Assembly (NCBI GenBank): GCA_028284905.1
Contig: JANQQU010000026.1
Span: 121,252 to 174,565 of the forward strand
Length of the DNA stretch: 53,314 nt
Reading direction: 5' to 3'
From: Calditrichia bacterium
Lineage (GTDB): Bacteria; Calditrichota; Calditrichia; RBG-13-44-9; J075
The notes beneath the pieces are model-generated. The model made no database searches, was not told the origin of the DNA, and saw nothing but the letters and a program-made list of their open reading frames with translations. The stretch's first letter is position 1. Each line of letters opens with the position of its first letter. The position numbers were made by a program, and so were the translations under genes. Below, piece by piece: positions 7,947 through 23,288 of this stretch.

Positions 7947-10052
7947 CTATAAAAAGATGCTGAAAATATTCAGGTATTCCGGTTGATCAAGTATAAACTG
8001 CATCCAGAAAAGCCAGCGCATGCTTAGTTTGTTTTTGCCCAGGGAGGAGGGCGTAATCGCTTTACTGTTGTTGGTAAAATTTAAATCGAGAACGATTTTG
8101 TTCTCCGGGTCGACGGTGGCAGATTTCAGGCGCACTGGCAGGGTATAACTGAATTTATGCCAGAGCGATTCTCCATCCCAGGTTTCCCGGCGGATGCTGC
8201 CATCTTCAAAAACCACTTCTATTTCAACCGGAAAAATAAACGCTCCCAACCGGCGAAGATGAACTTCGCTATGATAGTATTCTTCAATATCAGATGTATC
8301 GGAAACAAGCGTTGCGCTTAAGTCTGTCGGATCAAACGTCTGGCTGCTGATCGTTTTTGTATAGTCGTGACCGGTGGCCGGCTGATAGGGGCGGGTAAAA
8401 ATCCGATCAACGGTATAATCCAGGATGGCATTATCGTAAAGCGCCTGATCAAAAAAGCGCTGCATATTCTTTCCGGATACCTCGTTTACGATATTAATAA
8501 AATCCTGCGATTTCGGATGCTTGAAACGCCAGCGGTCAACATATGTGCGAATGATGGCCTGCATGGTGCTGTCGCCGAGGTAGTTATGCAAAGTCGAGAG
8601 CATAACCGCCGGTCTGGAATAGGAATTAATACCGTAACTGCCATCAGAGTAATATTCCCAGGCGTTACGAACAATCGGGTCAACATCCGGTGCCCAAAGG
8701 TAGCCTGCCCGCTGTACGTGATGATTATTAACTTTTATGCCCAGTAAATCGATCAAGTCACCTTCCGGGCCATAGATGTGATTCATCGCGAGCATTTCTA
8801 AGTAAGAGGTAATTCCTTCATCCAGCCAGGTTTCCTCAAATTCATTGCTCGCAAGCATATGCTGAAAATAATTATGCCCAAATTCGTGAATGATCACCTC
8901 TTCCAAACGGTGTAAACCTTCCGGGGCGCCATAAAATGTTCGGGCAGTAAAAAACGTCGGATATTCCATCCCACCGGTACGACCGGCATTTCGACGGGGA
9001 TCAACGATTGTCAGGTTGGGGAATGGATAGTCACCATAGCGGTCCTGAAAAAATTCGACAGCAGCCCTGGCCGCTTCGATATGGCGTGGCCCTTGCTCCC
9101 GGTGGTCGGATTGGATCAGGGCGCGAATTTCCACATCCTGTGCTTGTCCCTTAAACTCCAGAAATTCCGGGCTGGTTGTCCAGGCAAAATCATGCACATC
9201 TTCAGCATGATAAAAGTGGGTAGCGGTACCATCTCCATTGTCGGTAGGCTCTCCGACAATGAGACCGGTGGCACCGAGCAGATTTTCCGAGGGGACGGTC
9301 ATCCAAACATTGTAAACACCGAAATCGGCGAAAAATTCCGAATTGCTATGAAATTGATGGCAGTTCCAGCCCTCATCGCTAAATACCCCGACTTTGGGAA
9401 ACCATTGCGCTACTAAAAAATATTCTTCCTTAAAACCGGTGCGGGCCAGTGGCGGCGTTGGTAATTTCGCGGAAAAATCCAGATAAAGAGAGATGCTTTC
9501 TCCAGGTGCAACTGCCGTCGGCAAAGCAACGCTGATAACAGATTTATCTTCGGTGTGGGCAGGTATATCCGGTTGAATAAAACGCGTTGCCGTACTCAAA
9601 TCTGTGCCGGGAATAGCTGCTGACGATTCTTTATCTATCAGAGAATAATATTGTTGAACATTGGTGGCGGGCGCCGGCAGCAACTGCAGGCGGTTGATGT
9701 CGATATATCCCCATTTTATCGAAGGGAGCGGGGTATCTATTAAGGAGCTGGCATATCCCTGCATGAAGGTGGAACGATTATTCCGGAAACCATTCAGATA
9801 GAGGTGGAACTGTAGCTCCTGCGTAGAAATGCTGGCCGTGTTTTTCCAGGTCAAAATTTGTCGTGCTTGTAGTTCGCCATTGTCGGTGTTTAATACGACT
9901 TTGATGTCGTAATTCGCGTTGCGGGGACTCAGCGGTTCGCTAAAGAGAACCGGCGGTGAGGGCGTCTGGGCAAGAAGAATCTGTAGAAATAACAGACTAA
10001 GAAACAGGCCTCGATGGATGAAAGTAAATGCCGCGCTCAAGTAATACTCCAC
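7947..10052 (-). CDS. secreted M1-family zinc metallopeptidase
   Basis: This 701-residue gluzincin has the zinc site HEFGH (His389, Glu390, His393) followed, after exactly 18 residues, by Glu412 in WLDEG, the canonical M1 arrangement. The substrate-binding GxMEN motif appears as GGMEYP at about residue 358. An N-terminal hydrophobic segment (about 14-28, ending LLAQ) is a signal peptide, so the enzyme acts in the periplasm or outside the cell. M1 enzymes are usually aminopeptidases, but substrate specificity cannot be told here. The extreme C-terminus is hydrophobic and aromatic. It is the first gene of a two-gene operon with the membrane protein at 6591-7931. Confidence 0.92.
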   Translation of the reverse strand: MEYYLSAAFTFIHRGLFLSLLFLQILLAQTPSPPVLFSEPLSPRNANYDIKVVLNTDNGELQARQILTWKNTASISTQELQFHLYLNGFRNNRSTFMQGYASSLIDTPLPSIKWGYIDINRLQLLPAPATNVQQYYSLIDKESSAAIPGTDLSTATRFIQPDIPAHTEDKSVISVALPTAVAPGESISLYLDFSAKLPTPPLARTGFKEEYFLVAQWFPKVGVFSDEGWNCHQFHSNSEFFADFGVYNVWMTVPSENLLGATGLIVGEPTDNGDGTATHFYHAEDVHDFAWTTSPEFLEFKGQAQDVEIRALIQSDHREQGPRHIEAARAAVEFFQDRYGDYPFPNLTIVDPRRNAGRTGGMEYPTFFTARTFYGAPEGLHRLEEVIIHEFGHNYFQHMLASNEFEETWLDEGITSYLEMLAMNHIYGPEGDLIDLLGIKVNNHHVQRAGYLWAPDVDPIVRNAWEYYSDGSYGINSYSRPAVMLSTLHNYLGDSTMQAIIRTYVDRWRFKHPKSQDFINIVNEVSGKNMQRFFDQALYDNAILDYTVDRIFTRPYQPATGHDYTKTISSQTFDPTDLSATLVSDTSDIEEYYHSEVHLRRLGAFIFPVEIEVVFEDGSIRRETWDGESLWHKFSYTLPVRLKSATVDPENKIVLDLNFTNNSKAITPSSLGKNKLSMRWLFWMQFILDQPEYLNIFSIFL

Positions 10053-10319
10053 TATCTTAATATAAGTCCGGTTGAATATAACAGGTTTTGCCCCGGATGA
10101 CTATGATCAGCGAAAGCTGAATATAACTCGACAAATTAGCAAAGATACGTCTTTAAATCAAGGTTACAGATAGGAAAGCTTCTTGAAATTCCTCAAAGCC
10201 ATTTGATATTTCCGGGGCATACCGTATCTTCTTCCGGGAGCATCGGGAGAAGGTGCAGCATCATAAATATTCGCATTTCTGAAAAATCGCTATAAAAACA
10301 TTCAACAGTGTAAAGTCAT

Positions 10320-11018
10320 ATGAGATATTTTGAAGGATATTCCTTCGAGGATCTGCTGGATGCACTTGTGAATCCTCCCTCCGATCATCACTATCAGCAA
10401 GCCTGGATGGAATTTCTGGAACGCTATCGTTTTACTATCGAGAGTGCTGCCAGGCATCGTTGTAACGGGTGGAATGCCCGTTCGCTGGATATGCAGCTCA
10501 GTGATGTCGTCAATGATGTTATTTCGGATGTCTTGCTTATCCTCTGTAAAAAGAACTGTAAGGCCCTGGCAGATTTTCGCGGCCGGGACAGTGAAGAACA
10601 ATTTAAGGGCTGGCTGCGGGTAGTAGCCAGTCGTGCTGCGGGACGCCGCTTGAAAAACAAGGCGTTTCAACGGGTCATTATTACCGAAGAGGACGGCGAA
10701 CGGAGTGACTTGCCAGACTATGTTATCAAGGATTACCTCTCCGGACTGGAACGGGATCAGGTCTGGGAATTATATGAAGATTGGGTAAACACTATCCGGG
10801 AAGTTAAGGGCAGCCGGAAAGGGAATACTGAGCGCGACATACACATTTTTATGCTTTATACTTTGTCGGATTTTACCCAGGAAATGATTTGTGATTTGCC
10901 GGGATTCGCGGATCCTGCCAGTGCTGACAAATTAGGACACCGGGTGGTGGATAATGTCGTTAATCGCCTCCGCAACTTATTGAAGGAACACTGGAACATC
11001 GATCATTTTAATGCTTAG
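10320..11018 (+). CDS. ECF-like sigma factor, paralogue A of the cluster
   Basis: The 232 residues resemble a divergent ECF sigma factor. A region-2-like segment (about 30-115) contains FLERYR, the acidic stretch VVNDVISDVLLIL and QFKGWLRVVASRAAGRRL, the usual position of core-RNA-polymerase and -10 contacts. A C-terminal helix-turn-helix-like region 4 (about 178-228) follows the motif RDIHIF. It shares the leader xxFEDLL-x-NPP, the AW-x-FLERYR block and the RD-x-HIF block with the genes at 11033 and 13671, so the three are paralogues. It is the first gene of the cluster, lacks its own ZAS-type partner, and ends 14 bases before paralogue B. The Shine-Dalgarno site is weak (GTAAAG). The sigma assignment is by pattern and context, not by close similarity. 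Confidence 0.7.
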   Translation: MRYFEGYSFEDLLDALVNPPSDHHYQQAWMEFLERYRFTIESAARHRCNGWNARSLDMQLSDVVNDVISDVLLILCKKNCKALADFRGRDSEEQFKGWLRVVASRAAGRRLKNKAFQRVIITEEDGERSDLPDYVIKDYLSGLERDQVWELYEDWVNTIREVKGSRKGNTERDIHIFMLYTLSDFTQEMICDLPGFADPASADKLGHRVVDNVVNRLRNLLKEHWNIDHFNA

Positions 11019-11032
11019 TGTGTTGGGTGGGT

Positions 11033-11677
11033 ATGGAATTTAAAGAAATGTTGTCAATACTACAGAATCCTCCGGGGAACGGCGGCGGAGGTGGTGATTA
11101 TCATTTATTTAATGAAGGATGGTCGCATTTTCTGGATAGATACCGGGCGTTAATCGCAACAACAGTCAAACGGTTTTGCGGGGAAAATAAGTTTACTAAT
11201 GCGTCGGAATATAACAAGTTTATTGATGATATCACCTATGATGTGCTGGAAATTCTGATCGAAAAAAACTATAAAGTGATCCGGCAAATTAAGGCTACCG
11301 CCGAATGGCAATTTAAAGGTTATCTTTTTATCGTCACAAAAAATGAATCGATTAAAGCATGTAAGAAGATCCCGCCAATAGACGCGTATGATGATAATGT
11401 TCGTGCAGATCAGCGGGAAGTCGTGCGGGAATTTGAAAACACCGGCTATCAACGTTGGGAAAATTTTCATAATATGGCATCATCAATTCGGGATAAGCAG
11501 GGGACGCGTTCCAAAAACCGGCACAGGGATTTGCATATATTCTTGCTGAGCAGTTTCGGCGGATTTAGTAATGAAGACATTTCCCGGGCGTTAAGTAAAG
11601 AGGGCGTTACGATGAAAATCGTAACCAATAGTATTCACCGGATCAAAGGTATGCTGAACAATCGATTACCGGAATAA
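11033..11677 (+). CDS. ECF-like sigma factor, paralogue B
   Basis: The frame extends to a GTG at 11018, but the ATG at 11033 is preferred because its product begins MEFKEMLSILQNPP, matching MEFQEMLKILQNPP of paralogue C at 13671. The 214-residue product keeps the FLDRYR block, an acidic helix (IDDITYDVLEILI), the QFKGYLFIVTKNE segment equivalent to sigma region 2, the NRHRDLHIF block, and a C-terminal region-4-like helix-turn-helix (FSNEDISRAL). A Gly-rich linker follows residue 15. The next gene, 18 bases downstream, encodes a ZAS-like protein, as expected for a sigma/anti-sigma pair. Confidence 0.7.
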   Translation: MEFKEMLSILQNPPGNGGGGGDYHLFNEGWSHFLDRYRALIATTVKRFCGENKFTNASEYNKFIDDITYDVLEILIEKNYKVIRQIKATAEWQFKGYLFIVTKNESIKACKKIPPIDAYDDNVRADQREVVREFENTGYQRWENFHNMASSIRDKQGTRSKNRHRDLHIFLLSSFGGFSNEDISRALSKEGVTMKIVTNSIHRIKGMLNNRLPE

Positions 11678-11695
11678 ATTTTGAAAGGCTTTTTA

Positions 11696-12064
11696 ATGGA
11701 TTATCCGGACGGACGCTTATTTGCATTATTGCAATTGAAATTGGATGGAGAGTCGCCCGCTGATCTCTCTGAAGAGGATCGGGCAAAAATAGAGGAACTG
11801 GAGCGCAAATTAAAGTCTCAGTCAACGGAGACATTATGGAAAAAAGTTGCGAAGGGATTGCCGAATCGTGAATGCAAAGATGAAAATGAATTCTTTGCCC
11901 GGGAAGACATCTGCCTGGGATTGATGTTTCATGGATTTAAAGATTCGGATGAGGATCGGAACCGTTACTTTCAGCATATGAATACCTGCTTCTATTGTTT
12001 TGAGTTATACTCCGATGTGATGCGCGGCTATCTGAGTGAACTTGAAAAGCATAAAAATCGTTAA
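11696..12064 (+). CDS. small ZAS-like putative zinc anti-sigma protein, copy 1
   Basis: The TTG at 11681 also opens this frame, but the ATG at 11696 aligns with the paralogue at 14311 (MDYPDGRLFALLQLKL against MDYNFGRLLALLKLKL) and has AAAGG at a good distance. The 122-residue soluble protein carries His94-x3-Cys98-x2-Cys101 (HMNTCFYC), the signature of zinc-binding anti-sigma domains, and Cys60, which is also conserved in copy 2 and could be a fourth ligand. In known ZAS proteins this motif sits in an N-terminal domain; here it is C-terminal and there is no membrane helix. Position directly after a sigma-like gene supports an anti-sigma role. The function is inferred. Confidence 0.6.
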   Translation: MDYPDGRLFALLQLKLDGESPADLSEEDRAKIEELERKLKSQSTETLWKKVAKGLPNRECKDENEFFAREDICLGLMFHGFKDSDEDRNRYFQHMNTCFYCFELYSDVMRGYLSELEKHKNR

Positions 12065-12095
12065 AAGAAGATAACTTTGAGAAAAAAATATTTTT

Positions 12096-12126
12096 TTGAG
12101 AGAAAAATAAAAGTGTTGGCATCTAT
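12096..12126 (+). promoter_or_regulatory. candidate ECF-type promoter, site 1
   Basis: TTGAGAGAAAA starts at 12096 and TCT of ATCTAT starts at 12122, an offset of 26. The same offset between TGAGA and TCT is seen at 13531, 14706 and 16161. It lies in the 152-base gap between the first ZAS-like gene and the membrane protein at 12217, about 90 bases before the start. The gap is otherwise AT-rich with no gene. Promoter function is inferred from recurrence. Confidence 0.5.
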
Positions 12127-12216
12127 AAGCGTAGAAACTGGAAACGATAGCGTGTCGACAAGCAATCGCTAAATTAAGATAGGGTCAAAAATTAGCAGAT
12201 GAGAAAGTAGTAAAAA

Positions 12217-13455
12217 ATGGGCACAGTAATTAAGGTAACTCAAACCGAATTGGCCGGTTTTCTCGAGGGTAGTACCAGCGAGGAAATCCGCCGTAAAGTA
12301 GATGATATCCGCCGGGATTATCCCGAGTATGATATGCTTCTGGAAATGGCGCAGGAGGCCTGTCAGGATAGTAATGTTCAGCTTCCGGGAACGCCTCCGG
12401 ATAGTACACTCACACCTTCGGAGCTGGATCAGTTGTTGATGGATTTGTATGCCAACACAGCTTCTACTTCAGAAAAACAACGCTTTATCGATCATTTAAT
12501 TCATTCAGAATCCTTCTACGAAAGACTACTGAAAAATTTCCTGGAAACTCACGAGGTGATGCAGGATGCGGAAGCGCTGGCTGCCAGTGGTAACTACCTG
12601 GGGAGCAAAAGCAATGAAACCCTGTTGCGGGAAGTGGGCATCTTTCAAGAAACACCTGTAGAAGTATTTAAAGAAAAGAAGCAACCTGAAAGGCCAGGGC
12701 TTATCCAAACGTTTGTACATTGGATGCAAGATGAAGGACTACGCTATGCGATACCGGCAGCAGCAGTTGTGTTGATTGCATTTGCCAGTCCTGCTATATG
12801 GTCGCATTATAATAATCCTTTTAATAAGCAGAATTACGATAATGCTGCACCATTTGCATATAATCAGTCCGCCCTGAATGAAGCCTTGAGCGGTCTGCCC
12901 AGTGGTTTACGGAGCAGTGACACCCGGGGCGAAAACAATTTCCACGGTCATTTTACGGCGATGGGCCGGGTAATGCCTGCGACAATTCTGAAACCGTTTG
13001 AAGATCGCGCCTATCGGGACGTGGTGGAAAATGTTGCTTTAAACCAGCAAACTGCTGATTCGCTCGAAAAGTGGATTATAACTTTAAGCGATACCGATAG
13101 TTTGCCTGATTCTCTTAGCAATAAATTATCCCTCGCTCGCGAAATGGTTCATGCCTACTATCTCCATACTGGAGCAGCCAGTCTGGCACTTTACCTCAGC
13201 AAAGATGCCGATGCCCGCAGTAAATCGAAAGCGGCGCATTTGCAGGATGCTGAAAAGTGGTTAAGCAAAGCAAAAACCCTGGCAGAACAGTACGGACATT
13301 CCGCTCTCGATCAGGAAAATTATTTCCTGGGATTAGCTTATGCCTATCATTACGACAAAGCAAAAAATCAACTGGCGATCGACGCATTTAATGCGGTGCA
13401 TTCAGAGAGCAGCTTCTATGAGAATGCCCGAAAAATGAAAGAATGGCTGCAGTAA
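12217..13455 (+). CDS. single-pass membrane protein, putative membrane anti-sigma/sensor, copy 1
   Basis: The 412-residue protein has no signal peptide. The cytoplasmic part contains two repeats of the helical pattern seen at the start of anti-sigma proteins (QTELAGFLEGSTSEEIRRKV at 9-28 and a related block at about 70-105). One membrane helix follows at about 176-196, then a conserved outer segment PFAYNQSALNEAL and a helical TPR-like C-terminal domain (about 280-412) with alternating Ala/Tyr/Leu helices. It aligns without gaps to the protein at 14817 over the first 130 residues. By the positive-inside rule the TPR-like part lies outside the cytoplasm. I infer a signal-transducing anti-sigma or a sensor for one; the family is not named. 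Confidence 0.6.
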   Translation: MGTVIKVTQTELAGFLEGSTSEEIRRKVDDIRRDYPEYDMLLEMAQEACQDSNVQLPGTPPDSTLTPSELDQLLMDLYANTASTSEKQRFIDHLIHSESFYERLLKNFLETHEVMQDAEALAASGNYLGSKSNETLLREVGIFQETPVEVFKEKKQPERPGLIQTFVHWMQDEGLRYAIPAAAVVLIAFASPAIWSHYNNPFNKQNYDNAAPFAYNQSALNEALSGLPSGLRSSDTRGENNFHGHFTAMGRVMPATILKPFEDRAYRDVVENVALNQQTADSLEKWIITLSDTDSLPDSLSNKLSLAREMVHAYYLHTGAASLALYLSKDADARSKSKAAHLQDAEKWLSKAKTLAEQYGHSALDQENYFLGLAYAYHYDKAKNQLAIDAFNAVHSESSFYENARKMKEWLQ

Positions 13456-13464
13456 TTTACAACG

Positions 13465-13504
13465 AAAGCAAATATCCCATCCCCCGGGATATTTGCTTTT
13501 TTTT
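13465..13504 (+). terminator. rho-independent terminator after 12217-13455
   Basis: A perfect 14-bp stem (AAAGCAAATATCCC at 13465-13478, GGGATATTTGCTTT at 13486-13499) with a 7-base loop is followed by a T run to 13504. It closes the first sigma/anti-sigma unit 10 bases after the stop codon and separates it from the second unit. Confidence 0.9.
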
Positions 13505-13530
13505 GCTTTTTCAAAATAACTGAAATATTT

Positions 13531-13561
13531 CTGAGAAAATTTCCTACCCATTTCACTCTTA
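13531..13561 (+). promoter_or_regulatory. candidate ECF-type promoter, site 2
   Basis: CTGAGAAAA starts at 13531 and TCTTA starts at 13557 (offset 26). Over 30 positions it matches site 4 at 16161 in 23 without a gap; both lie just downstream of a terminator. It is about 112 bases before the start of sigma paralogue C. Confidence 0.55.
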
Positions 13562-13670
13562 ATAGACAAGCTGGAAAGAATTGACGCTAATTGGCGATGC
13601 GGGCTTCGCTAGTTATGTCATTTTTTCAAATAATTCAGTACTAGTCATATAAATCTGTAAGAGGAATGGT

Positions 13671-14321
13671 ATGGAATTTCAAGAAATGTTGAAGATTCTC
13701 CAAAACCCTCCAGATACATCTTCGGGGCGGAAATATCGCCAATACGAAGCGGCCTGGAGCTATTTTATGGAGGATTTTCGGTCAGTAATGGAAGCGACGG
13801 TTGTCCGGTATTGTGGCCGAAATAGATTCGGTACTAATAGAGCATACCGGGACTTCATAGACGATTGCGTGGCGGAAGTGTTGTTGATCCTGGTAAAGGA
13901 TAATAACCGGGCAATACGCAGCTTCAAGGGAAAAACCCGTGGGCAATTTGCTTCTTACCTTTGGCAAATTACCAGACATGTAACGTTTAAACTCGCCCCT
14001 CGTGATAATATCGAAGTAATATCAGAAGGATCAATTCTTCCCCCAAGTACCCGCAGGGATATTTTTAATGAAATTTCAGTGCGAATTCGAGAAATGCAGG
14101 ATACGGCGGAAAAGAAAGGCCGGAAGGCAAAAAATCGTCACCGGGATTCCACAATATATTTCTTTAGTGATCAACTGGTCGATTTGGGACTAGGTGGTTT
14201 TACCGATCAAGAAATATGCCGTATCCCTTTCCTGCAAGGCACGAGTGAAAATGTTGTGCGGTTAGCAAAATTTCGTATCCGTAGATTATTGCAACTGTCG
14301 GGAGGTAAATATGGACTATAA
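13671..14321 (+). CDS. ECF-like sigma factor, paralogue C
   Basis: The 216-residue product begins MEFQEMLKILQNPP and follows paralogue B closely: AW-x-YFMEDFR, the acidic helix DFIDDCVAEVLLILV, a region-2-like segment FKGKTRGQFASYLWQITRHV, the KNRHRD block, and a C-terminal helix-turn-helix-like part (GGFTDQEICRI). It heads the second unit, behind its own candidate promoter and the terminator of the first unit. The GAGG Shine-Dalgarno and start of the following ZAS-like gene lie inside its 3' end, an 11-base overlap that implies translational coupling of sigma and partner. Confidence 0.7.
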   Translation: MEFQEMLKILQNPPDTSSGRKYRQYEAAWSYFMEDFRSVMEATVVRYCGRNRFGTNRAYRDFIDDCVAEVLLILVKDNNRAIRSFKGKTRGQFASYLWQITRHVTFKLAPRDNIEVISEGSILPPSTRRDIFNEISVRIREMQDTAEKKGRKAKNRHRDSTIYFFSDQLVDLGLGGFTDQEICRIPFLQGTSENVVRLAKFRIRRLLQLSGGKYGL

Positions 14322-14709
14322 TTTTGGACGGCTGCTTGCCCTTTTAAAATTAAAGCTGCTCGGAGAGCTTCCGGATGATGTAGAAATATCGGAATTGGAA
14401 GCAATTGCAGAACTGGAAGAGGTTTTGCGAACTCCCGAGACATTCGACAAATGGATTACCCTTTGCAACGATTTACCGGTAGCTGAGTGCCGCGAGGATG
14501 ATTTTATCCTTTCAGACCAAGTTGCGCTTATTGGGCTGTTTTTCCTGGGCTTCAATGGATCAGAAAGTATGCGGAACCGTTTTTTTCTGCACCTGATCAA
14601 CTGTTTCTACTGCTTTAACAGTTTATGCGAGGTGCTGCGTGGATATCTGGATACCATGGACAGTAATAATCTGCCGCAAGACGGCCACCTGGTATTGGAT
14701 TTTCCGTGA
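14311..14709 (+). CDS. small ZAS-like putative zinc anti-sigma protein, copy 2
   Basis: The 132-residue soluble protein is a paralogue of the one at 11696. His94, Cys98 and Cys101 (HLINCFYC) and Cys60 fall at exactly the same residue numbers in both, which supports a zinc site. The start is fixed by GGAGG 5 bases upstream and by alignment with copy 1. It overlaps the sigma gene by 11 bases. The tail after residue 118 is unlike copy 1. Its stop codon forms part of the next candidate promoter. The anti-sigma role is inferred from motif and coupling. Confidence 0.62.
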   Translation: MDYNFGRLLALLKLKLLGELPDDVEISELEAIAELEEVLRTPETFDKWITLCNDLPVAECREDDFILSDQVALIGLFFLGFNGSESMRNRFFLHLINCFYCFNSLCEVLRGYLDTMDSNNLPQDGHLVLDFP

Positions 14710-14736
14710 GAATAATTCTGCAGAATTTCTATCTAC
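14706..14736 (+). promoter_or_regulatory. candidate ECF-type promoter, site 3
   Basis: GTGAGAATAA starts at 14706, overlapping the stop codon of the ZAS-like gene, and TCT of ATCTAC starts at 14732, again an offset of 26. It lies about 83 bases before the membrane protein gene at 14817, the same relation as site 1 has to its paralogue at 12217. Confidence 0.45.
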
Positions 14737-14816
14737 TATTATGAAAGCGATTTTGTTTTAGGCGATTATAAATCGTAAAAACAGAAGTTTAGGAACTTAA
14801 AAAAGAGAGCGATAAT

Positions 14817-16079
14817 ATGAGCGTAATGATCAAGTTACCACAAACAGAGCTGGTGGGATTTCTCCGCGGGAATTGTAGCGAAGAAACCAATCGGAAGGTA
14901 AGATATCTCCGAAAAGAATATTCTGAATATGAGCGGTTATTGGAGATTGCCGAAGATGTCTGTCAGGACAGGGCAATAGATTTGAATATCGATCCCCCGG
15001 AGCGTATGATGGCATCGGAAGATTTCAACCAGTTATTAGAAAATCTTTATACCTGGAATTCAACCCGGGAAAATAAACAACAATTTGTTAAATACCTGTT
15101 TCACTCGGAGACCTTCTATGAAAAGTTGATGACTAATTTTCTTGAAGCGGAAGAAATAATGTTAATGGCGGAAGCGTTCCCCATCATAGAAGAATTGCCA
15201 CTGGGTAAAAGTGATCGAGAATTTTTACAGGAATTGGGAATTGATAAAGAACCAAATCGGATCTGGGAAAAAGTTGCGAATGCTTATAATACTTTCCTGG
15301 AAAATACGTCCACCTGGTGTTCTGTCGGATTAGCGAAATTACTGGAAATACTTAATCGCGGTCCAAGAGTGGTCATTCCTTTGGCTTTAACCTTTTTAAT
15401 ATCCTGTAGCGGTGTCACCCGGGTGTCCTGGCTGCATTATGCATCGCCATTTAAGGATCGTCAAATTCAGGCTGAGCCATTCGCGTATGACCAAAGCTTA
15501 TTGGGACAGGCATTTACGGAATTACCAATGAATATGCGGAGCGGTGAGGAAGTTAATAAAGAAGCCTTTATACGGGACTACGAGCAAGCCGGTTGGGCAT
15601 TAAAAACACTGTTGCCGGTATTTCAGGCAAAGGACTATGACACTTTTCTGGAGAATGTATCCCAGGAACATTCAAGAATCGCCACTCTGGAAATGGAGAT
15701 TGAAAAAATGAATCGCTCCGGAAATTTACCGGATACCCTGCGCAGAAAACTACCCTCCGCCCAGGGTATGGTTCATGCATATTACCTGCATAGTGGCATT
15801 TCCAGTCTGGCACTGTATCTCGATCGGAATAAAGCTGTTGACGATATACCGCGCCGGGATTACCTGTTGCAAGCAGTTAAGAACCTTCAAAAAGCAAAAA
15901 CACTTTCCGGTAATTATGGCTACGCTTCCCATGAGCAGGAATCCTACTTCCTGGGCATGGCCTTCGCATATTTTTATGAGGATGAGAAAAATGAGATGGC
16001 TATAAAGAATTTTTCAGAAGTGAAGCCGGAAAGTAAGTTTTACGAGCGTGCACAGAAATTGAAAGATTGGTTAGAATAA
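14817..16079 (+). CDS. single-pass membrane protein, putative membrane anti-sigma/sensor, copy 2
   Basis: The 420-residue protein is a paralogue of the one at 12217. Its cytoplasmic part starts with PQTELVGFLRGNCSEETNRKV, keeps the HSETFYEKL block (His96 region) and Cys49 found in copy 1, and has one membrane helix at about 184-206. The outer part opens with PFAYDQSLLGQAF and ends in a TPR-like helical domain. The region between the second repeat and the helix (about 140-185) differs from copy 1 in length and sequence, so the two may pair with different partners. It closes the second unit before a strong hairpin. Confidence 0.6.
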   Translation: MSVMIKLPQTELVGFLRGNCSEETNRKVRYLRKEYSEYERLLEIAEDVCQDRAIDLNIDPPERMMASEDFNQLLENLYTWNSTRENKQQFVKYLFHSETFYEKLMTNFLEAEEIMLMAEAFPIIEELPLGKSDREFLQELGIDKEPNRIWEKVANAYNTFLENTSTWCSVGLAKLLEILNRGPRVVIPLALTFLISCSGVTRVSWLHYASPFKDRQIQAEPFAYDQSLLGQAFTELPMNMRSGEEVNKEAFIRDYEQAGWALKTLLPVFQAKDYDTFLENVSQEHSRIATLEMEIEKMNRSGNLPDTLRRKLPSAQGMVHAYYLHSGISSLALYLDRNKAVDDIPRRDYLLQAVKNLQKAKTLSGNYGYASHEQESYFLGMAFAYFYEDEKNEMAIKNFSEVKPESKFYERAQKLKDWLE

Positions 16080-16096
16080 GGTTTAGTCGGAAACGA

Positions 16097-16127
16097 ACAA
16101 GGTATCCCGTTTTTCGGGATACCTTGT
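16097..16127 (+). terminator. hairpin, probable terminator after 14817-16079
   Basis: A perfect 13-bp inverted repeat (ACAAGGTATCCCG at 16097-16109, CGGGATACCTTGT at 16115-16127) has a TTTTT loop and lies 17 bases after the stop. The tail is A/T-rich but lacks a clean T run, so termination may be partial. Confidence 0.7.
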
Positions 16128-16160
16128 AAAATGTATATTTATTAAAAAAGTTAGATTAAT

Positions 16161-16191
16161 TTGAGAAAAAATCCTGCCCGATTCCCTCTTA
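16161..16191 (+). promoter_or_regulatory. candidate ECF-type promoter, site 4
   Basis: TTGAGAAAAA starts at 16161 and TCTTA starts at 16187 (offset 26). It is the best match to site 2 (23 of 30 positions). It lies about 285 bases before the metalloprotease gene, so a transcript from here would have a long leader. Confidence 0.55.
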
Positions 16192-16473
16192 TCGATATAA
16201 AGGTGAAAAACCACTGATAAAAATATTCCAGTTGCCAGGGCGATGGCAATTGCCGGTTTAATAAATTTATCCAGGTAATTACTGGTATTTTGATATTTCA
16301 GTGGGAATGTATAACTTTTACATTACCGGTTGACTGGAGACCGAATTTGCCTTCGAAAACGACTATTATCATTCTTTAATTTTTGTAAAAATGATTAAAA
16401 TGTACTTTTGTTGCTTTTAATTGATAAATGATGTGTCAATAGAATTGTGCTATTCTATTGAGAGAGGAGAAAG
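16192..16473 (+). promoter_or_regulatory. long structured leader upstream of the metalloprotease gene
   Basis: No gene is visible between the stop at 16079 and the start at 16474. Besides the hairpin and promoter listed separately, the stretch holds a small hairpin (TTGCCA 16232-16237, TGGCAA 16244-16249) and a perfect 10-bp inverted repeat with a 6-base loop (TCAATAGAAT 16436-16445, ATTCTATTGA 16452-16461). The second hairpin ends just before the Shine-Dalgarno GAGAGGAG, so it could affect ribosome access. No known riboswitch pattern was recognised. Confidence 0.45.
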
Positions 16474-18264
16474 ATGAAAAAGCAGCCAGTTACTGTTTAT
16501 AATACACGTAACCGCTTTGTCCTGCGACCGGAAGTGCTTAGCCTGACACTTGGAATCTTTTGGTCTTGTGTAGTATTCATTTTTACCCTGGCAGCAATGG
16601 TCGATGGAAAACTATCTGGCCTGCCGGAAATCTTGGCCGGAATATATCCTGGTTATGGGTTGTATGGCTGGAGTTTTCTGGCCGGAATCGGATGGGCGTT
16701 TTTAAGCGGATATCTACTGGGATATTTTATCGGCCTAATGTATATAGTGCTTCCTCGTCGGCAACTTCGTAAAAAATCTTCGCCATTATTTAGAATTAAT
16801 ACAGATCAAAACGCCAATGTTATTCAGGAAGGTGTTGGCAAAGATCCTTATACCATTGTATTTGTCGCTAACCCTTACGTGCTTCCCCTGGAAGGCGATG
16901 GTAGACCAATGGTTGACCCGATCATTAATAACCATGGCCTTTTTCTAAAAACCGTTACCCGCTGCCTTCGTAGCTTTCTGGGAAATGAACTGATGCGCCA
17001 GCCGGATATATTCCAGCAAATGCGCTTTATAACCGTTTTTGATCATGACCATAAAGTATCCGAAAAGAATACAAATGAAGCGCTGTGTGAAGGAGTCAGT
17101 CTGGACACCAGTGCATTGGCGCCACGCCGTGTGAGGCGGGATGATAATGGTAATGTGAATAAAAACTTTGTGCTGGACTATGTGCTGCAGCAAATAGAGA
17201 ACAGCAATATAAAAGGGCCGTTGGAAATCGATGTTATTGCCATTATTTCTGCTGACCATACGTACACCCGCTCGGCTGCCCGGTTTAGCGAAGATAATCC
17301 AAATAGAGGCGGCAAAAGATTTACCTTTACTTTTTTTGAACCGGGTACCGCACCGCAGGAAAAATACCATTATCGCTATGCCAACGTACCCGGTATGTTT
17401 GCCCTTTCTGCCTGGGACGACCGTTTGAAAACCCCGGTACACGAATTTGCGCATGCAATGAGTGATATCGACAACGGCGCCATCGACGACGAATATATCG
17501 ATGAGTCCCACGCTGCATTGGAGTTTCGGGTAAACAAGAAATTTCGCGGCGGCTTTATGGTCTCCGATTGGATGGCAAATGAATTAGCCGATCTCAATTA
17601 TGATAAACCGGAAGATCAGGAATTTATAGGGCGGCTCATTGCGCCAAATACAGGCATCAAATGTGAAGTTTTTGACACACAACAAGCTTTCTTGAACAGT
17701 GCACAAGCTGTCATTAACAATGATGAAGTTTTTTCCCGTTATCGGGAAACAATACTAAAACTGGCACGTTTCCGGACGGTTTTCCGCTTGGACAGTACCG
17801 CCCTGGCCAATTTACAGCCACTATTACCGACTGAAGTATTCGAACGTTTGGACAGTGAATTGCCGCGGCTCAATAAGGATTTTATCGATAAAAAAGAGTT
17901 TCTGGATGAATTGAAAGACGTTCTGAAAGCGCCAAGGGATAATGGCAATAAAGATTTCGAAAAATACAAGCTACTGATTCTGCGTTTTGCGAATGTTCAT
18001 AATTATGCCATTCCCCGGGAATTTGCCCGTTATCGATTTAATGGGGCAGAAAAAGTATATGATTCCGACCGAAAACGTGGCGATAAGGAGATGCATTGGG
18101 TTTCTTACACCCCGGCCCGCTCCCAGGAACATACGACCTGTATTATGGATAGTACTTCCCGGGAATACCGCTTCGATCAACTGGTCTTTGATTTTATGTA
18201 TGACCGCTTGATGACAAAAATTGAACGTAATCATCTGACGCCGCAACCTTGCGAGCGTGCGTGA
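16474..18264 (+). CDS. membrane-anchored putative zinc metalloprotease (M64-like HEFAH...DEY)
   Basis: The 596-residue protein begins with two membrane helices (about 21-43 and 66-93) holding IYPGY between them, a module also found alone at 22415-22816. A soluble domain follows with HEFAH (His323, Glu324, His327) and, 11 residues on, DDEY (338-341). This resembles the HExxH...DEY arrangement of M64-type peptidases, though the spacing is longer. Arg/Lys-rich ends before helix 1 and after helix 2 (RRQLRKK) predict that the catalytic domain faces the cytoplasm. The remainder is helical and unrecognised. It heads the third unit of the cluster, behind candidate promoter 4 and a strong Shine-Dalgarno. 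The substrate is unknown; the membrane anti-sigma-like proteins upstream are possible ones. Confidence 0.65.
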   Translation: MKKQPVTVYNTRNRFVLRPEVLSLTLGIFWSCVVFIFTLAAMVDGKLSGLPEILAGIYPGYGLYGWSFLAGIGWAFLSGYLLGYFIGLMYIVLPRRQLRKKSSPLFRINTDQNANVIQEGVGKDPYTIVFVANPYVLPLEGDGRPMVDPIINNHGLFLKTVTRCLRSFLGNELMRQPDIFQQMRFITVFDHDHKVSEKNTNEALCEGVSLDTSALAPRRVRRDDNGNVNKNFVLDYVLQQIENSNIKGPLEIDVIAIISADHTYTRSAARFSEDNPNRGGKRFTFTFFEPGTAPQEKYHYRYANVPGMFALSAWDDRLKTPVHEFAHAMSDIDNGAIDDEYIDESHAALEFRVNKKFRGGFMVSDWMANELADLNYDKPEDQEFIGRLIAPNTGIKCEVFDTQQAFLNSAQAVINNDEVFSRYRETILKLARFRTVFRLDSTALANLQPLLPTEVFERLDSELPRLNKDFIDKKEFLDELKDVLKAPRDNGNKDFEKYKLLILRFANVHNYAIPREFARYRFNGAEKVYDSDRKRGDKEMHWVSYTPARSQEHTTCIMDSTSREYRFDQLVFDFMYDRLMTKIERNHLTPQPCERA

Positions 18265-18292
18265 GCAAACGAAATCGAGGAAGGAAAAGAAT

Positions 18293-19288
18293 ATGAATCC
18301 GCTGCATCCGAAATTACGCCAGGCTTTATTGCAAGATAAAACGCATCGGAGAAATGGCTTAACACCTTCGCGCCTACTGGAGTATGAACAGCTAGGTGGA
18401 CAACTTTATTATACCATTCATTATCCGGAACGGCCGCTAAAAACAGAGGATTTGGAAATTCTTGTGCTGGATGAAGAAGTCCTGGGAAATATTTGCAATA
18501 ATCAAGTTAAATCAGGAATAAACTTATGCAGCGTTTTGGAAGATATTTATTACGACCACCAAGCAGAGTTTAACGAACCACATACGGCGGATGGATTGAT
18601 AGAGAGTTTGAAAGAAAAAACGGATGATCCGGAAGCAAAGAAGATTATTGAGAACGGCCGGGAAACGATTCTCGCAAATGTGAAAAGGAAGCTGCGCCAA
18701 TATCGGGTGACGCCTGCCGTAACTCGTCGTTTGGCGGAAGAGGGCGTTGATTGCCAGGTGATAAAAATTCTTGAAAAGATTTACCCGCCGATTATTGATG
18801 CAGCGGTAAAAGATCCCAAGTCGGATAAATCAAAATCCGCAAATATTAAGAAAGAAGACCGGCAGAGCAAAACCTTTTATAGTGCAGATGAATTTGACGC
18901 TGCATTAAGAGAATATTTCGGGGCCGACAATCCAGTTCTGGATGCATACTACGAATGCAACAAAGAGCGCATTTTTGATGCCGCGACAGTGGTAATACCA
19001 ACTGGCCCGCTTGTTTTTGGTTTATCTGAAACGGATCTACGTCAGAAAATTGCTGACTTCCGGAGTCGATTTATGCCGCGCTACCCGCAAATCCATGCCG
19101 ACTGGGTAAAGCAGCAACAAAGAATCATCGATCGTTCTCAATTCGATCTTACCTGGAAAAATTTCTTCTTTTTCATTCACCTGGGCCGCTCGCTTGATTT
19201 TGCCGGAAAGTTGATTTATCGGAAAACCTTTTTTCCGATTTTTGATAAGATTGGGGACTGGTGGGGAGCACTTTCGGTTAAAAGGTAA
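18293..19288 (+). CDS. hypothetical protein of the CHAT/metalloprotease cluster
   Basis: The frame reaches a GTG at 18257 inside the preceding gene, but the ATG at 18293 has AGGAAGGAA at the right distance and gives a 330-residue product beginning MNPLHPKLRQALL. I do not recognise it. It has no signal peptide and no clear membrane helix; the only hydrophobic patch is FFFFIHLG near 295. It is charged and helical, with a Lys/Ser-rich linker near 185-200 separating two halves, and a Cys-containing segment ICNNQVKSGINLC near 70-82. Placed between two proteases in a tight operon (29 and 38 base gaps), it may be an adaptor or a substrate. No function can be read directly. Confidence 0.6.
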   Translation: MNPLHPKLRQALLQDKTHRRNGLTPSRLLEYEQLGGQLYYTIHYPERPLKTEDLEILVLDEEVLGNICNNQVKSGINLCSVLEDIYYDHQAEFNEPHTADGLIESLKEKTDDPEAKKIIENGRETILANVKRKLRQYRVTPAVTRRLAEEGVDCQVIKILEKIYPPIIDAAVKDPKSDKSKSANIKKEDRQSKTFYSADEFDAALREYFGADNPVLDAYYECNKERIFDAATVVIPTGPLVFGLSETDLRQKIADFRSRFMPRYPQIHADWVKQQQRIIDRSQFDLTWKNFFFFIHLGRSLDFAGKLIYRKTFFPIFDKIGDWWGALSVKR

Positions 19289-19326
19289 AGGGCATTATCC
19301 CGATAATTTTCGGGGACAATAATACT

Positions 19327-22300
19327 ATGATACAAATGATAAAAAAATATTGGGTGCTGCTGGTAGTGGTGTTCACCATTGCTGCGATCTCGGGATGCGA
19401 CAATTCTCAGGAAATAGAAAAACAGGCAATTGCCGCAGAATTAACCCGGATAAACTATAATGATCGTTTCGTTTCCATGGATGATGCTGTGGCATTCCTT
19501 TATAATCAACGCCATGATTATTTGCAAGCCAATAAGGATCTGATCATTGATGATCAGAAGAATTTTATCTACACCTCTCTGCTGCTGATTAACAATGGCT
19601 TGAGTTCTCGTTTGAATGGTCGCCTTGCTGCCTCAGATTCTATCTTGGACTATGCTCAGATTTTTGCTTCGTTTTTTAATGAAGCCTTTGATGACCGTTT
19701 CTTGCAGGAAGAACTAGCGTTCAGCAGGGGGTTGAATGTAGAAAGATTGCAGGTTCGCCAGGACCTGAAAACACTTGTTTACAAAGCCGGAAAATCTGGC
19801 GACAAATTAAAGGCATATAAAGATGTATTAAATATGGCTCGTTCACTTCAATATCCCAAATTGCAAGTTGAAATAATTCGGAAGATACAATTTAATCTTA
19901 ATAACGAAAATAAGTATGAGCAGTCGCGACTCTACGGAGAAGAGGGGTTGAAGATTGCCCGACAAATTAATTACCGTTCAGAATTATGTAAGGTTTTACG
20001 AAATTTGGGGAATAGCTACATTAACCTGGGTGATTATCATAAAGCGATCAAATCTTTTGATGAAGGGATATTTTTTGCCCGGAGCTTGAGAGATAAAGAA
20101 ATGGAGATGAAATTAATTGCCCGGAAAGGTATTGCCCACGCTGAGCAGGGTGAATACAATAATGCTATGGCCGCATATAATGAAGCGATACGTCTTGCGA
20201 CTAACTATGCCGACTCATCCTATTTTAGTAAGCTTTATAATGATCGAGGGCTATCCCTGATGTGGATGGGGCTTTACGATAGTGCTAAAGTGGATTACTT
20301 CCGAGCGTTGGAATTGCTGAAAGCTTCGACTATAGGGGATAGTGTTAAAAGCGATGAGGCCGAGGAAGTTGCCAATACCACCTCCAACCTGGGTATTCTT
20401 TATCAGTGGGTTGGGAATATGAAAGCAGCAGATACAACCCTTAATAATGCATATCGGATAATCCGGCAAATTGATGAAAAGGATGATTTCGTCAATATGT
20501 TGGATAATCTTGGTGATTTATACCAGGAAATGGATAGCCTGGCCCTCGCGCTTAGTTATTACCAAATGGCCTCGGCTACCATTAAATCCTGCAAAGAGGA
20601 TAACACCAATCTGCCGAAAAAACTGGAAGCAGAAGTTTTCATCAGTTGGGGAAATGCTTGCCTGCGGAAAGCGGAGGCATTAAACCAGAAGGGAGATAAA
20701 CAAACAGGCAATGAGTTTCTACGATTGGCATTAAATAATTTTGATGCAGCTTATGCTGTAATCGGTGACTTGGATGTGCCGAGCGAAATTGCCCGGGCGC
20801 TAATCGGCCAGGGGAAAGCCTATCGCTTGGGAAGTCAGTATCAGGCTGCAATGCAAGTGTTACGAAAAGGCATTGCTATTGCAAAAGAACTACGGGATCC
20901 GCTAGTATTGCTCGATGCTCAATTTACCTTGAGCCAGGTGTATCAAAATCGTGGGAACATAGAGGGGGCCAGACAAGCACTTGAGGTCGCTATTGAAACT
21001 ATTGAGACCTCCGGCGAGAATGTTAGCGGAAAAAATCGCTTAACTTTTTTTGCGAAGCGGCAAGACATCTATGATGAAATGATTCTCTTCCAAATGAGAA
21101 ACGATCGTTTCGAGGAAGCTTTTCTCTATAGCGAAAGCTCCCGGGCCCGATCTCTAATTGACGTCATTGAAGAAAAGAATCTTTGGCAGGCAAATGGGCA
21201 ACCGGTTTCCAGTATCTCGGATATTCAAAAAAGCCTCGGTGAGCAGGTGCAATTAGTAGAATATAAAGTTACCCGGAATGAGTTGCTGATTTTTGTAGTT
21301 ACCGGCAATACTTTTTATGCGCCGATTAGAATATCGGTGTCCCGCGATAGCCTCTCAAAATGGGTGATCGATTATAGAAAAGCAATTGGTGCGGACGAGA
21401 ATAATGCGTTTGAAGCGGAAGTAAAATTTATTGCTAAGGAACGTTTTCTAAGCGGGGCGAAAGCAGGACAACGCTTACATGAATATTTGATAAAACCGAT
21501 AGAAGAAGATTATCTGGATAAAGAGAAGGTTTTGTATATCGTACCAGATGAGGTGCTTAGCTATGTGCCATTTGATGGATTAAATACCACAAAAAGCGGG
21601 AATCATTTTCTGGTAGAAGATTATACTATTGCTTATTCACCCAGCGCCATTGTCCTGAAATATATTTTAGATCATCCCCGCGTGCCAGTTTCTCCAGAGG
21701 AAGATTTATTCTTCGGTGTGGCGAACCCGACGTTTGATTTACCGGGAACGGAAAAGGAAATCGATAATAGCTCCCGTTATTTCAAGAAAAAACCGGAAAT
21801 TTTGAGAACATATAATTCGAACGAAGCAAAAGTGATGGAAGCTTTGCGGCGTAGTCCGGCTGTCATTCAATTTTCCACCCATGCATTTACCAGCTCGGAT
21901 AATTCCAATTATCATTCAATCGTGGTAGGAGCGAAGATGAACAGACAGTCTGCCGAAGAATTCGTTAAGCTCCGAAATCATTCAAAGGCAGAACCTTTAT
22001 TGAATGATGATCAATTAATGGTTTATGAAATTGCCCAGCTGGATTTAAGTAAAACTAAATTTGTAAACCTGCCCGGGTGTAATACTGGTGGTGGCTTGCT
22101 CTATCGCGGTGAAGGAGTCGTCGGTATTACGACAGCTTTTATGAAGGCTGGTGTTCCATCGGTGATGTCTACGCTGTGGAAAATACGCGATGAAGCATCG
22201 AGTGAATTAATGACTGCTTTCTTCGCTAACTGGATGGGCAAAGACAGTGTTTCCCGGGCAGAAGCCCTCCGCCAGGCAAAGTTGGAGATGATTGTAGATA

Positions 22301-22371
22301 TGCGAGCGAAAAACGGCTATCCATTTCCTCACCGTTGGGCCGCCTTTGTAATTAATGGGGATAGTTTTTAA
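19327..22371 (+). CDS. TPR-CHAT lipoprotein (caspase-like peptidase)
   Basis: The 1014-residue protein starts with a lipoprotein signal peptide whose lipobox is ISGC (Cys24, followed by Asp). About ten TPR-like helical repeats fill residues 150-600, including a typical NLGNSYINLGDYHKAIKSFD. The C-terminal CHAT domain (about 690-1014) has the catalytic pair His852 in STHAF and Cys918 in LPGCNTGGG, followed by GEGVVGITTAFMKAG and STLWKIRDEAS, so the active site looks intact. CHAT proteins are clan CD proteases related to caspases and separase, often switched by their TPR part. Export as a lipoprotein places it on the periplasmic side of a membrane. It lies 38 bases after the unknown protein and 43 bases before the two-helix protein. 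Confidence 0.85.
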   Translation: MIQMIKKYWVLLVVVFTIAAISGCDNSQEIEKQAIAAELTRINYNDRFVSMDDAVAFLYNQRHDYLQANKDLIIDDQKNFIYTSLLLINNGLSSRLNGRLAASDSILDYAQIFASFFNEAFDDRFLQEELAFSRGLNVERLQVRQDLKTLVYKAGKSGDKLKAYKDVLNMARSLQYPKLQVEIIRKIQFNLNNENKYEQSRLYGEEGLKIARQINYRSELCKVLRNLGNSYINLGDYHKAIKSFDEGIFFARSLRDKEMEMKLIARKGIAHAEQGEYNNAMAAYNEAIRLATNYADSSYFSKLYNDRGLSLMWMGLYDSAKVDYFRALELLKASTIGDSVKSDEAEEVANTTSNLGILYQWVGNMKAADTTLNNAYRIIRQIDEKDDFVNMLDNLGDLYQEMDSLALALSYYQMASATIKSCKEDNTNLPKKLEAEVFISWGNACLRKAEALNQKGDKQTGNEFLRLALNNFDAAYAVIGDLDVPSEIARALIGQGKAYRLGSQYQAAMQVLRKGIAIAKELRDPLVLLDAQFTLSQVYQNRGNIEGARQALEVAIETIETSGENVSGKNRLTFFAKRQDIYDEMILFQMRNDRFEEAFLYSESSRARSLIDVIEEKNLWQANGQPVSSISDIQKSLGEQVQLVEYKVTRNELLIFVVTGNTFYAPIRISVSRDSLSKWVIDYRKAIGADENNAFEAEVKFIAKERFLSGAKAGQRLHEYLIKPIEEDYLDKEKVLYIVPDEVLSYVPFDGLNTTKSGNHFLVEDYTIAYSPSAIVLKYILDHPRVPVSPEEDLFFGVANPTFDLPGTEKEIDNSSRYFKKKPEILRTYNSNEAKVMEALRRSPAVIQFSTHAFTSSDNSNYHSIVVGAKMNRQSAEEFVKLRNHSKAEPLLNDDQLMVYEIAQLDLSKTKFVNLPGCNTGGGLLYRGEGVVGITTAFMKAGVPSVMSTLWKIRDEASSELMTAFFANWMGKDSVSRAEALRQAKLEMIVDMRAKNGYPFPHRWAAFVINGDSF

Positions 22372-22414
22372 AAAGAAAATCAACCTTTAATATTTATTTC
22401 ATAAAGGAGCTATG

Positions 22415-22816
22415 ATGAATGATGATTTGTTTTTGATGGCACCGAAACATTCTGAAGATGACGATGATCCATTGCCGCCGACAGACACTGAATTTCCGAT
22501 AGGAAGTATCATAATAAGGAACCAACTGGGACCAATTCGTTTTGCGTTAGCCCTGGGAATCGGTTGGGGATTACTGTTTGTGATTATGGCAATAATCATT
22601 GCAGCGGTTAATGGTAATACAGCGGCTCTGGCGGTATTTGATGCAATCTATCCGGGATTTGATGCAACGCGGGATCTTGTATATGTAATTATCGCTGGCT
22701 TTTCCTGGAGCTTTCTCTATGGCGTCATTAGTGGGCTGTTCATTGCTCTTTTATATAATGCCCTGGTTCGCCAGTTTGTAATTGCCGGTGGCGATGGCTA
22801 TGAGACCTATGGGTAA
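22415..22816 (+). CDS. small two-helix membrane protein, homologous to the metalloprotease anchor
   Basis: Two ATGs are adjacent; the one at 22415 is preferred because AGGAG ends 5 bases before it (2 bases for 22412). The 133-residue protein has an acidic start (SEDDDD), then two membrane helices of about 42-64 and 86-112 separated by a loop with IYPGF. It aligns with residues 18-97 of the metalloprotease: LGI-x-W in helix 1, IYPG-aromatic in the loop, AG-x2-W-x-FL-x-G and FIALLY in helix 2. The pattern resembles small two-helix proteins often labelled bacteriophage holin, but that label is not functional evidence. It is probably a partner or membrane oligomer of the cluster. Confidence 0.7.
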   Translation: MNDDLFLMAPKHSEDDDDPLPPTDTEFPIGSIIIRNQLGPIRFALALGIGWGLLFVIMAIIIAAVNGNTAALAVFDAIYPGFDATRDLVYVIIAGFSWSFLYGVISGLFIALLYNALVRQFVIAGGDGYETYG

Positions 22817-22952: not shown

Positions 22953-23288
22953 TTGGCAAAACGGGAAATAAAATTTTCGGTAGAACTGGATGAGCAAAGC
23001 AATCCACAATCAATCGAATGGGAAGCCACCGATGCCGGATTTGACGGATCGCAGCCATGCGCTTCAATGATGATAAATCTCTGGGATCCGGCAGCAAGAA
23101 ATACCATGAATATTCATCTCTGGACGCCAGGGATGCTGGTCAATGATATGAATGCCCACTACTTCCAGAGCCTGATGGCGATGGCGGATAGCTATCAAAA
23201 TGCGACCCGCAATAGCGAATTGGCCGGAATGATTCGGGAATTTGCGAAATCTTTTTTGGATAAAGTGCGGGAAAAACAGGGTGGGTAA
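22953..23288 (+). CDS. gldC: GldC-like protein
   Basis: The 111-residue protein matches the GldC pattern: it opens with KREIKFSVELDE, continues with the IEWEATD segment, then MMINLWDP, LWTPGMLVNDM, and the helical tail with SLMAMADSYQNAT and MIREFAKSFLDKV. The start is TTG at 22953, chosen because AAGGAG lies 6 bases upstream and the product aligns from its first residue. GldC was named for gliding motility in Bacteroidota; relatives occur through the FCB group including non-gliders, where their role is unclear. It follows the CHAT cluster by 136 bases but a hairpin intervenes, so co-regulation is uncertain. Confidence 0.85.
   Translation: MAKREIKFSVELDEQSNPQSIEWEATDAGFDGSQPCASMMINLWDPAARNTMNIHLWTPGMLVNDMNAHYFQSLMAMADSYQNATRNSELAGMIREFAKSFLDKVREKQGG

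Follow-up and report, generated by a model that had tools for sequence, protein, structure and literature searches.

A candidate proteolysis-gated ECF sigma-factor switch with a CHAT protease and an M64-like peptidase in Calditrichota

Caspase-like (CHAT) proteases are widespread in bacteria; their triggers and substrates are mostly unknown, and the clear case that involves a sigma factor is tied to CRISPR. The locus described here occupies positions 10320-22816 of a 53,314-nt stretch of DNA ("the window") from a Calditrichia bacterium (assembly GCA_028284905.1, contig JANQQU010000026.1, positions 121,252-174,565 of the forward strand). Its genes, all on the + strand, form three blocks that resemble transcription units: sig1-sig2-zas1-tm1, sig3-zas2-tm2, and H-I-J-K. 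They encode divergent extracytoplasmic function (ECF) sigma factors, small proteins of the zinc-binding anti-sigma (ZAS) type, single-pass membrane proteins, a metallopeptidase-like protein (H), a helical partner (I), a CHAT protease with tetratricopeptide repeats (TPR-CHAT; J), and a hairpin protein (K). An initial annotation, made from the sequence of the window, had listed these genes, and all of them are present where it placed them and on that strand. On balance, we lean towards reading the locus as a proteolysis-gated switch for ECF sigma factors in the inner membrane, in which the CHAT protease acts outside and the M64-like one inside; both the proteolysis and the regulon are inferred from sequence.

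Membrane anti-sigma factors of the RseA/RsiW type (proteases DegS/RseP and PrsW) have an inner part that binds sigma and an outer part that serves as sensor, and they undergo sequential proteolysis. The window system likewise combines ECF sigma factors with single-pass anti-sigma homologues, and sequential proteolysis is proposed for it as well; its proteases, however, would be a CHAT protein outside and an M64-like protein inside, and both are encoded in the operon. In Craspase, the TPR-CHAT protease Csx29 cuts Csx30, an inhibitor of the ECF sigma factor CASP-sigma, and thereby relieves the sigma factor (PMC10028731, in which RseA and RsiW are also cited). Here too, a TPR-CHAT protease is encoded together with an ECF sigma factor and its probable inhibitor. 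However, the inhibitor in the window is a ZAS-type membrane protein, J has a lipoprotein or signal anchor, and H, I and K are extra. None of the type III-E parts (gRAMP/Cas7-11, Csx30/Csx31) was found among the window genes by Pfam, NCBIfam or PADLOC; a CRISPR array was not specifically searched for.

ECF54 sigma factors have CHAT-domain proteins in their conserved genomic context and lack an anti-sigma factor (PMC8999054). Subtilases and carboxypeptidases are also among the neighbours of ECF54-type sigma factors. The CHAT neighbour is shared with the window system, of which ZAS and membrane anti-sigma proteins are constant parts. In EACC2-caspase-ECF modules, a caspase domain, an ECF sigma factor and a TPR protein are neighbours (PMC8195603). 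The same three kinds of protein are combined in the window, but the EACC2/TRADD-N and DUF1822 components of those modules have no Pfam match there. In the CalpL/CalpT/CalpS system of type III CRISPR, a Lon protease reportedly releases a sigma factor from its inhibitor. CalpL is described as triggering a transcriptional response (PMC12751052). CalpL is a Lon/SAVED protease activated by cyclic oligoadenylate, and no such domain is present in the window system.

Links between ECF sigma factors and CHAT proteins are thus already known; what appears to be new is a proteolysis-gated ECF system with a new set of proteases. Searches of open-licence papers for CHAT in connection with anti-sigma factors, ECF sigma factors or Calditrichota turned up no description of this gene set, and within that literature the initial statement that no named system has it holds. 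A CRISPR-free operon of TPR-CHAT protease, ECF sigma factor and membrane anti-sigma factor names a concrete candidate substrate and offers a simple readout. Three families that the locus introduces are uncharacterised: H, an M64-like membrane peptidase; I, a helical partner; and K, a hairpin protein.

Conservation of the gene order

About 30 loci, from Calditrichota and the candidate phylum KSB1, repeat the order sigma-(ZAS)-membrane protein-H-I-J-K. Searches covered the genome of the window itself, 40 Calditrichota genomes, 84,980 species genomes, 82 genomes of the KSB1 group and 294 Planctomycetota genomes; in the last two samples the whole-genome searches were made with H only, and genes outside the window were called by script as the longest open reading frame (ORF). 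A second locus in the same genome (C69) comprises a pair of sigma-like genes and the genes for a TPR protein with one membrane pass, H', I', a TPR-CHAT protein and K', and its H' is about 31% identical to H of the window. Seven further H loci, in five other genomes, were found in Calditrichota and have the same parts as far as their contigs reach. The scan of the 84,980 genomes placed loci in Calditrichota, in KSB1 and on one contig of a 'Brocadia' metagenome-assembled genome (MAG); eight further loci came from it, nearly all of them from KSB1 and in the same order. Within the KSB1 group H is present in 19 of the 82 genomes, and 12 loci from this group, unused in building the profiles, largely repeat the order. 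By hand count, J follows at every locus with at least 4 kb past H (23/23) and the membrane protein is present at 26 of the 27 informative loci, the loci being partly non-independent (L045 and L122, for example, are near copies). The units named in the initial annotation therefore occur together in a survey of genome neighbourhoods, and its claim that they form one system is supported by the conserved order. An occurrence in Planctomycetota was considered and set aside: the single positive among the 294 genomes is a 5.7-kb contig (L055, PHFX01000067.1) of a 'Candidatus Brocadia' MAG and probably reflects a binning error.

A compact form, sig-zas-tm-J without H, I and K, emerges from the sigma side. 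In the 40 Calditrichota genomes, 25 matches to the sigma family exceed 100 bits whereas ordinary ECF sigma factors remain below 55 bits, a clean separation. Almost all of the strong matches adjoin zas/tm genes, and a TPR-CHAT gene where the contig suffices. The compact form is present at at least seven loci: L076, in the window's own genome, and L194, L196, L197, L199, L200 and L202 (at L196, L199 and L200 the membrane protein was assigned by its position and single helix, not by a profile match). Among the other sigma loci, L195 has three genes between sig-zas-tm and its TPR-CHAT gene, several end at a contig edge, and L198 has a weak CHAT match on the opposite strand; L201 is the exception, a sigma/ZAS locus without CHAT. 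At L201 (C8 of the window's genome), positions 7601-10389 encode a 796-aa protein with one transmembrane (TM) helix and a sigma domain of the window family, beside a ZAS gene; it is possibly a membrane-tethered fused sigma factor.

Since the compact form occurs without H, I and K, the constant core is the sigma factor, the ZAS, the membrane protein and the TPR-CHAT protease, with H, I and K as an added set. This form suggests that control of sigma factors by CHAT proteases may extend beyond Craspase. The loci come from a tblastn-confirmed scan of the collection and from whole-genome searches limited to Calditrichota, KSB1 and the Planctomycetota sample, so that the range of taxa given here is a minimum, particularly where the compact form is concerned. 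The window's genome has 16 CHAT matches, several with another sigma gene or a membrane TPR gene as neighbour (L074, L079), so that further CHAT-sigma variants are likely.

Components of the locus

Single-sequence Pfam searches of the region give a solid match for J only (CHAT at 1.6e-48, and TPRs), and NCBIfam adds weak sigma matches together with sub-threshold matches to holin_4 (NF037947) for the hairpins of H and K. The sigma family profile (A4) matches ECF sigma factors in the PDB over both domains, sigma-H with E 1e-8 (model positions 22-206 of 208) and RpoE with 1e-7. This match over nearly the full length supports the initial label "sigma-like" and, at the level of the sequence profile as distinct from a structure model, argues against unrelated folds. 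The sigma factors are called divergent because single members score below the Pfam and NCBIfam cut-offs. Pairwise identities are 27-33% among the three (sig2/sig3 33%, sig1/sig2 28%), 40% for zas1/zas2 and 39% for tm1/tm2. In the sigma tree sig2 and sig3 are sisters (support 100/100), with sig1 next (84/92). The three sigma factors thus look like local duplicates, and one protease set may therefore serve several sigma/anti-sigma pairs: the sensor module was probably duplicated locally (sig2/zas1/tm1 and sig3/zas2/tm2, plus sig1), and a single H-I-J-K set probably serves more than one pair.

Both zas1 and zas2 carry the motif that marks a ZAS, H-x3-C-x2-C in an anti-sigma domain (ASD) beside an ECF sigma gene. 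By hhalign (E 3e-4), the family of zas1 and zas2 can be aligned to the ZAS region in tm homologues; its profile has no credible match in the PDB. Many tm homologues have one or two H-x3-C-x2-C fingers before their single helix and TPRs behind it; zf-HC2 (PF13490) is found in 6 of 17, at best with 3e-14, and TPRs in 13 of 17. Products of tm1 and tm2 retain the region equivalent to the finger without its zinc ligands, the fingers residing in zas1 and zas2. Where zas is a separate gene, the membrane protein has a zinc motif at 0 of 17 loci; where there is no such gene, at 14 of 18 (Fisher 1.6e-6, for loci that are not independent and with relatedness uncorrected). The finger thus appears to be confined to one of two proteins, the membrane protein or a separately encoded ZAS, and two deep sigma clades broadly correspond to these two formats. 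That the zinc finger can be supplied in cis or in trans makes the system a natural experiment in anti-sigma evolution. By homology, the membrane protein is an anti-sigma homologue. The initial description of tm1 and tm2 as single-pass proteins was correct but incomplete, and the pairing of ECF sigma factors with ZAS proteins and with a membrane anti-sigma protein that has an outer TPR part agrees with the profiles, motifs and homologues.

J has a CHAT domain with its His/Cys pair, which is intact in all 29 J homologues, as expected of the TPR-CHAT lipoprotein protease that had been annotated. Nearly all of these homologues have a lipobox, a signal sequence or a TM anchor. In E. coli, an Asp after the lipid-carrying Cys keeps lipoproteins in the inner membrane, and J, which has this residue, is expected on the outer face of that membrane. 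A sequence search with the CHAT domain of the window reached no CHAT structure in the PDB. In two of the loci containing J homologues (L037, 2105-5026; L125, 371-3408) the TPR-CHAT gene is split into two ORFs, by frameshift or assembly error. The I family has a conserved N-terminus, MNPLHPKLRxALL. At two loci (L035/L047 and L121) one gene encodes I-TM-TPR-CHAT, with an I homologue joined to J at its N-terminal end; this position ahead of J's anchor would place I across the membrane from the TPR-CHAT part. The structure model of an I homologue is all-helical (mean pLDDT, the predicted local distance difference test, 86). Neither the profile of I nor this model finds a credible relative or fold in the PDB.

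The HEFxHxxS...DEY signature is invariant in H homologues. A structure model of H has good confidence over residues 20-330 and poor confidence in the C-terminal half; in Foldseek against the PDB, ranks 1-9 are all M64/IgA peptidases (probability 0.93-1.00, E 2e-3 to 2e-2), with low TM-scores. In a local hhalign comparison with 18 M64 proteins from the same phylum, H aligns around the active site (36 columns) with E 9e-5; a reversed decoy reaches 0.6. By sequence profile, H reaches only chance membrane-helix matches in the PDB and nothing in Pfam. The predicted fold and the HEFxH...DEY active site appear to resemble those of M64 proteins (IgA peptidase, BF3526, BACOVA_00663); H differs from them in its two-helix anchor, in an HExxH-DEY loop that is five residues longer and in having no match to PF09471. 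Because the fold seems to resemble M64 but PF09471 does not match, H is termed M64-like and not a member of M64. The initial annotation of a second, metallo-type protease is supported. Topology was assigned throughout from hydropathy and charge only. In H of the window, Lys/Arg residues number 5 ahead of the first helix, 1 within the 35-residue loop and 6 beyond the second helix, which implies an N-in/C-in protein with a cytoplasmic peptidase domain.

K matches residues 5-96 of H, the N-terminal hairpin (33% identity, E 1e-10; hhalign E 8e-9). Both match NF037947 at 39-44 bits (H E 7e-10, K E 2e-10), below the curated cut-off of 70 bits, and they are the only proteins in the whole genome to do so. 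A profile resemblance of K to half of aquaporin Z (E 0.02) was treated as a chance match between membrane helices.

Terminator-like hairpins lie after tm1 and tm2, and there are therefore probably three transcription units; the gap before H is 394 bp. A block of about 70 bp is shared by the regions upstream of sig3 and H. Its local alignment score is 32, compared with a null maximum of 31 in 300 shuffles. A genome-wide search for a regulon with the block pattern finds only the two known sites at 0 mismatches and near-control numbers at three mismatches. The shared block may have arisen incidentally when the sig-zas-tm module was duplicated.

A possible switch and its alternatives

The switch would operate as follows. 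In the resting cell, sigma would be held by the ZAS and the membrane protein. A signal outside the cytoplasm would reach the outward-facing TPR parts, those of the membrane protein and of J alike, whereupon the CHAT protease would cut the outer part of the anti-sigma protein. I could report the state of J to the cytoplasmic side, where H, anchored by its hairpin and perhaps paired with K, would use its cytoplasmic peptidase domain to remove the inner part of the anti-sigma protein and so free sigma. The freed sigma factor would then raise expression of its own operon and of a further regulon. This proposal leans on the precedent of Craspase, where Csx29 cuts Csx30, and on the RseA/RsiW logic cited with it (PMC10028731). 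A more specific version, which we regard as tentative and rather doubtful, is a two-sided relay in which the outer caspase-like and inner M64-like proteases, with I and the H and K hairpins linking them, cut both ends of the ZAS-TPR anti-sigma protein in turn to free the ECF sigma factor. Such a relay, if real, would amount to a new type of proteolytic signalling across the membrane, and the compact sigma-ZAS-TPR-CHAT operon would be its simpler form.

Several observations weigh against a proteolytic switch of this kind. The compact form does without H, I and K, so H is not needed for every version of it. PF09471 does not match H, and the only match to that model in the window's genome lies elsewhere (C11); the Foldseek E-values of H do not pass 1e-3. 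The M64/IgA relatives of known function are secreted, so that the cytoplasmic location of the H domain follows from charge distribution only. Neither the membrane protein nor a separate gene has a recognisable zinc motif at the zas-less loci L006, L033, L034 and L128, and the motif is lost in about half of the separate zas proteins. No promoter dyad common to the regions before sig1, sig3 and H was found that would support the initial proposal that the sigma factors drive H-I-J-K.

The proteases might instead be the output. Sigma would then be released in an ordinary way, by a ligand on the TPR part or by housekeeping proteases, and would induce H-I-J-K, whose products would process envelope proteins, or degrade them, under stress. 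ECF sigma factors commonly have peptidases among their targets, H-I-J-K resembles a transcription unit of its own behind terminator-like hairpins, and the block private to the regions before sig3 and H is what a common promoter would give. However, module duplication also explains that block, and in the compact form J directly follows sig-zas-tm, apparently in one operon with little else. The TPR-CHAT/ECF precedent, moreover, places the protease upstream of sigma (PMC10028731), and we consider the output reading somewhat unlikely. A module for cell death or anti-phage defence, to which the initial annotation had pointed, is improbable. Here a trigger would act through the CHAT protease on H, the holin-like hairpins of H and K would permeabilise the membrane, and sigma would mount a warning transcriptional response. 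CHAT proteases do act in defence, as in Craspase, and the hairpins give the genome's only, sub-threshold matches to a bacteriophage holin model; that match, however, may reflect merely a glycine-rich two-helix hairpin. J appears to face outward, away from phage nucleic acid, the neighbours are housekeeping genes (RecQ, DprA, ObgE, lytic transglycosylase), and PADLOC gives no defence match beyond a TPR model. A set of 2.9 million viral contigs contains no copy of H, and a viral origin of H was rejected for want of relatives there; the suggested link to defence or cell death is thus not upheld. That three unrelated units lie side by side by coincidence has a near-negligible probability: terminator-like hairpins do separate them, but their order is repeated at about 30 loci in two phyla, one of these loci lying in the same genome with a clearly diverged H (about 31% identical), and I and J can be fused.

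Feature coordinates and neighbouring genes

The features of the locus are collected in Table 1. From the conserved starts in the alignments, three start codons were probably called too far upstream, and the table uses the corrected starts of sig2 (11033), zas1 (11696) and I (18293).

Table 1. Genes and regulatory features of the locus, in window coordinates
Feature	Position	Strand	Description	Evidence
sig1	10320..11018	+	divergent ECF sigma factor, 232 aa	NCBIfam sigma70-ECF E 3e-4, residues 28-191
sig2	11033..11677	+	ECF sigma paralogue, 214 aa; ORF opens at GTG 11018, conserved start ATG 11033	Sig70_bacteroi1 E 1.4e-3
zas1	11696..12064	+	small ZAS-type protein, HMNTCFYC (H-x3-C-x2-C)	motif; family hhalign
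tm1	12217..13455	+	membrane anti-sigma homologue with TM 178-196 between an ASD-like N-terminal part that lacks zinc ligands and a TPR-like outer part	
Terminator-like hairpin after tm1	13464..13500	+	rho-independent type; 15-bp stem, then T-run	
Shared block, copy 1	13507..13577		before sig3; core TCCTRCCCRWTTCMCTCTTA	core exact only at two genome sites
sig3	13671..14321	+	ECF sigma paralogue, 216 aa	family profile, paralogy, tree
zas2	14311..14709	+	small ZAS-type protein, HLINCFYC	motif; 40% identity to zas1
tm2	14817..16079	+	membrane anti-sigma homologue lacking a zinc motif; TM 185-203, TPR-like outer part	
Hairpin after tm2	~16097-16127		13-bp stem	read from sequence
Shared block, copy 2	16138..16209		upstream of H	local alignment with 13507-13577
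H	16474..18264	+	two-TM hairpin (21-39, 75-93) and M64-like metallopeptidase domain; HEFAH 323-327, DEY 339-341	
I	18293..19288	+	helical partner protein, 331 aa; ORF from GTG 18257, conserved start M13	
J	19327..22371	+	lipoprotein (ISGC-D-N) TPR-CHAT protease, catalytic His852/Cys918	Pfam CHAT 1.6e-48, TPR
K	22412..22816	+	two-TM hairpin protein, paralogue of the H N-terminal hairpin	

Directly 3' of K, on the same strand, lies a gldC-like gene (22953-23288; GldC TIGR03515, E 1e-30). It was rejected as a part of the system: it belongs to a separate named family and was not noticed beside K elsewhere, where no search for gldC was made. Elsewhere in the window, outside the two-protease locus, positions 45190-51312 encode an envelope protease inhibitor, a 2040-aa bacterial alpha-2-macroglobulin (MG2, A2M, bMG10). 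A hybrid sensor of the two-component regulator-propeller type (Reg_prop, Y_Y_Y, HATPase) is encoded at 29887-33153.

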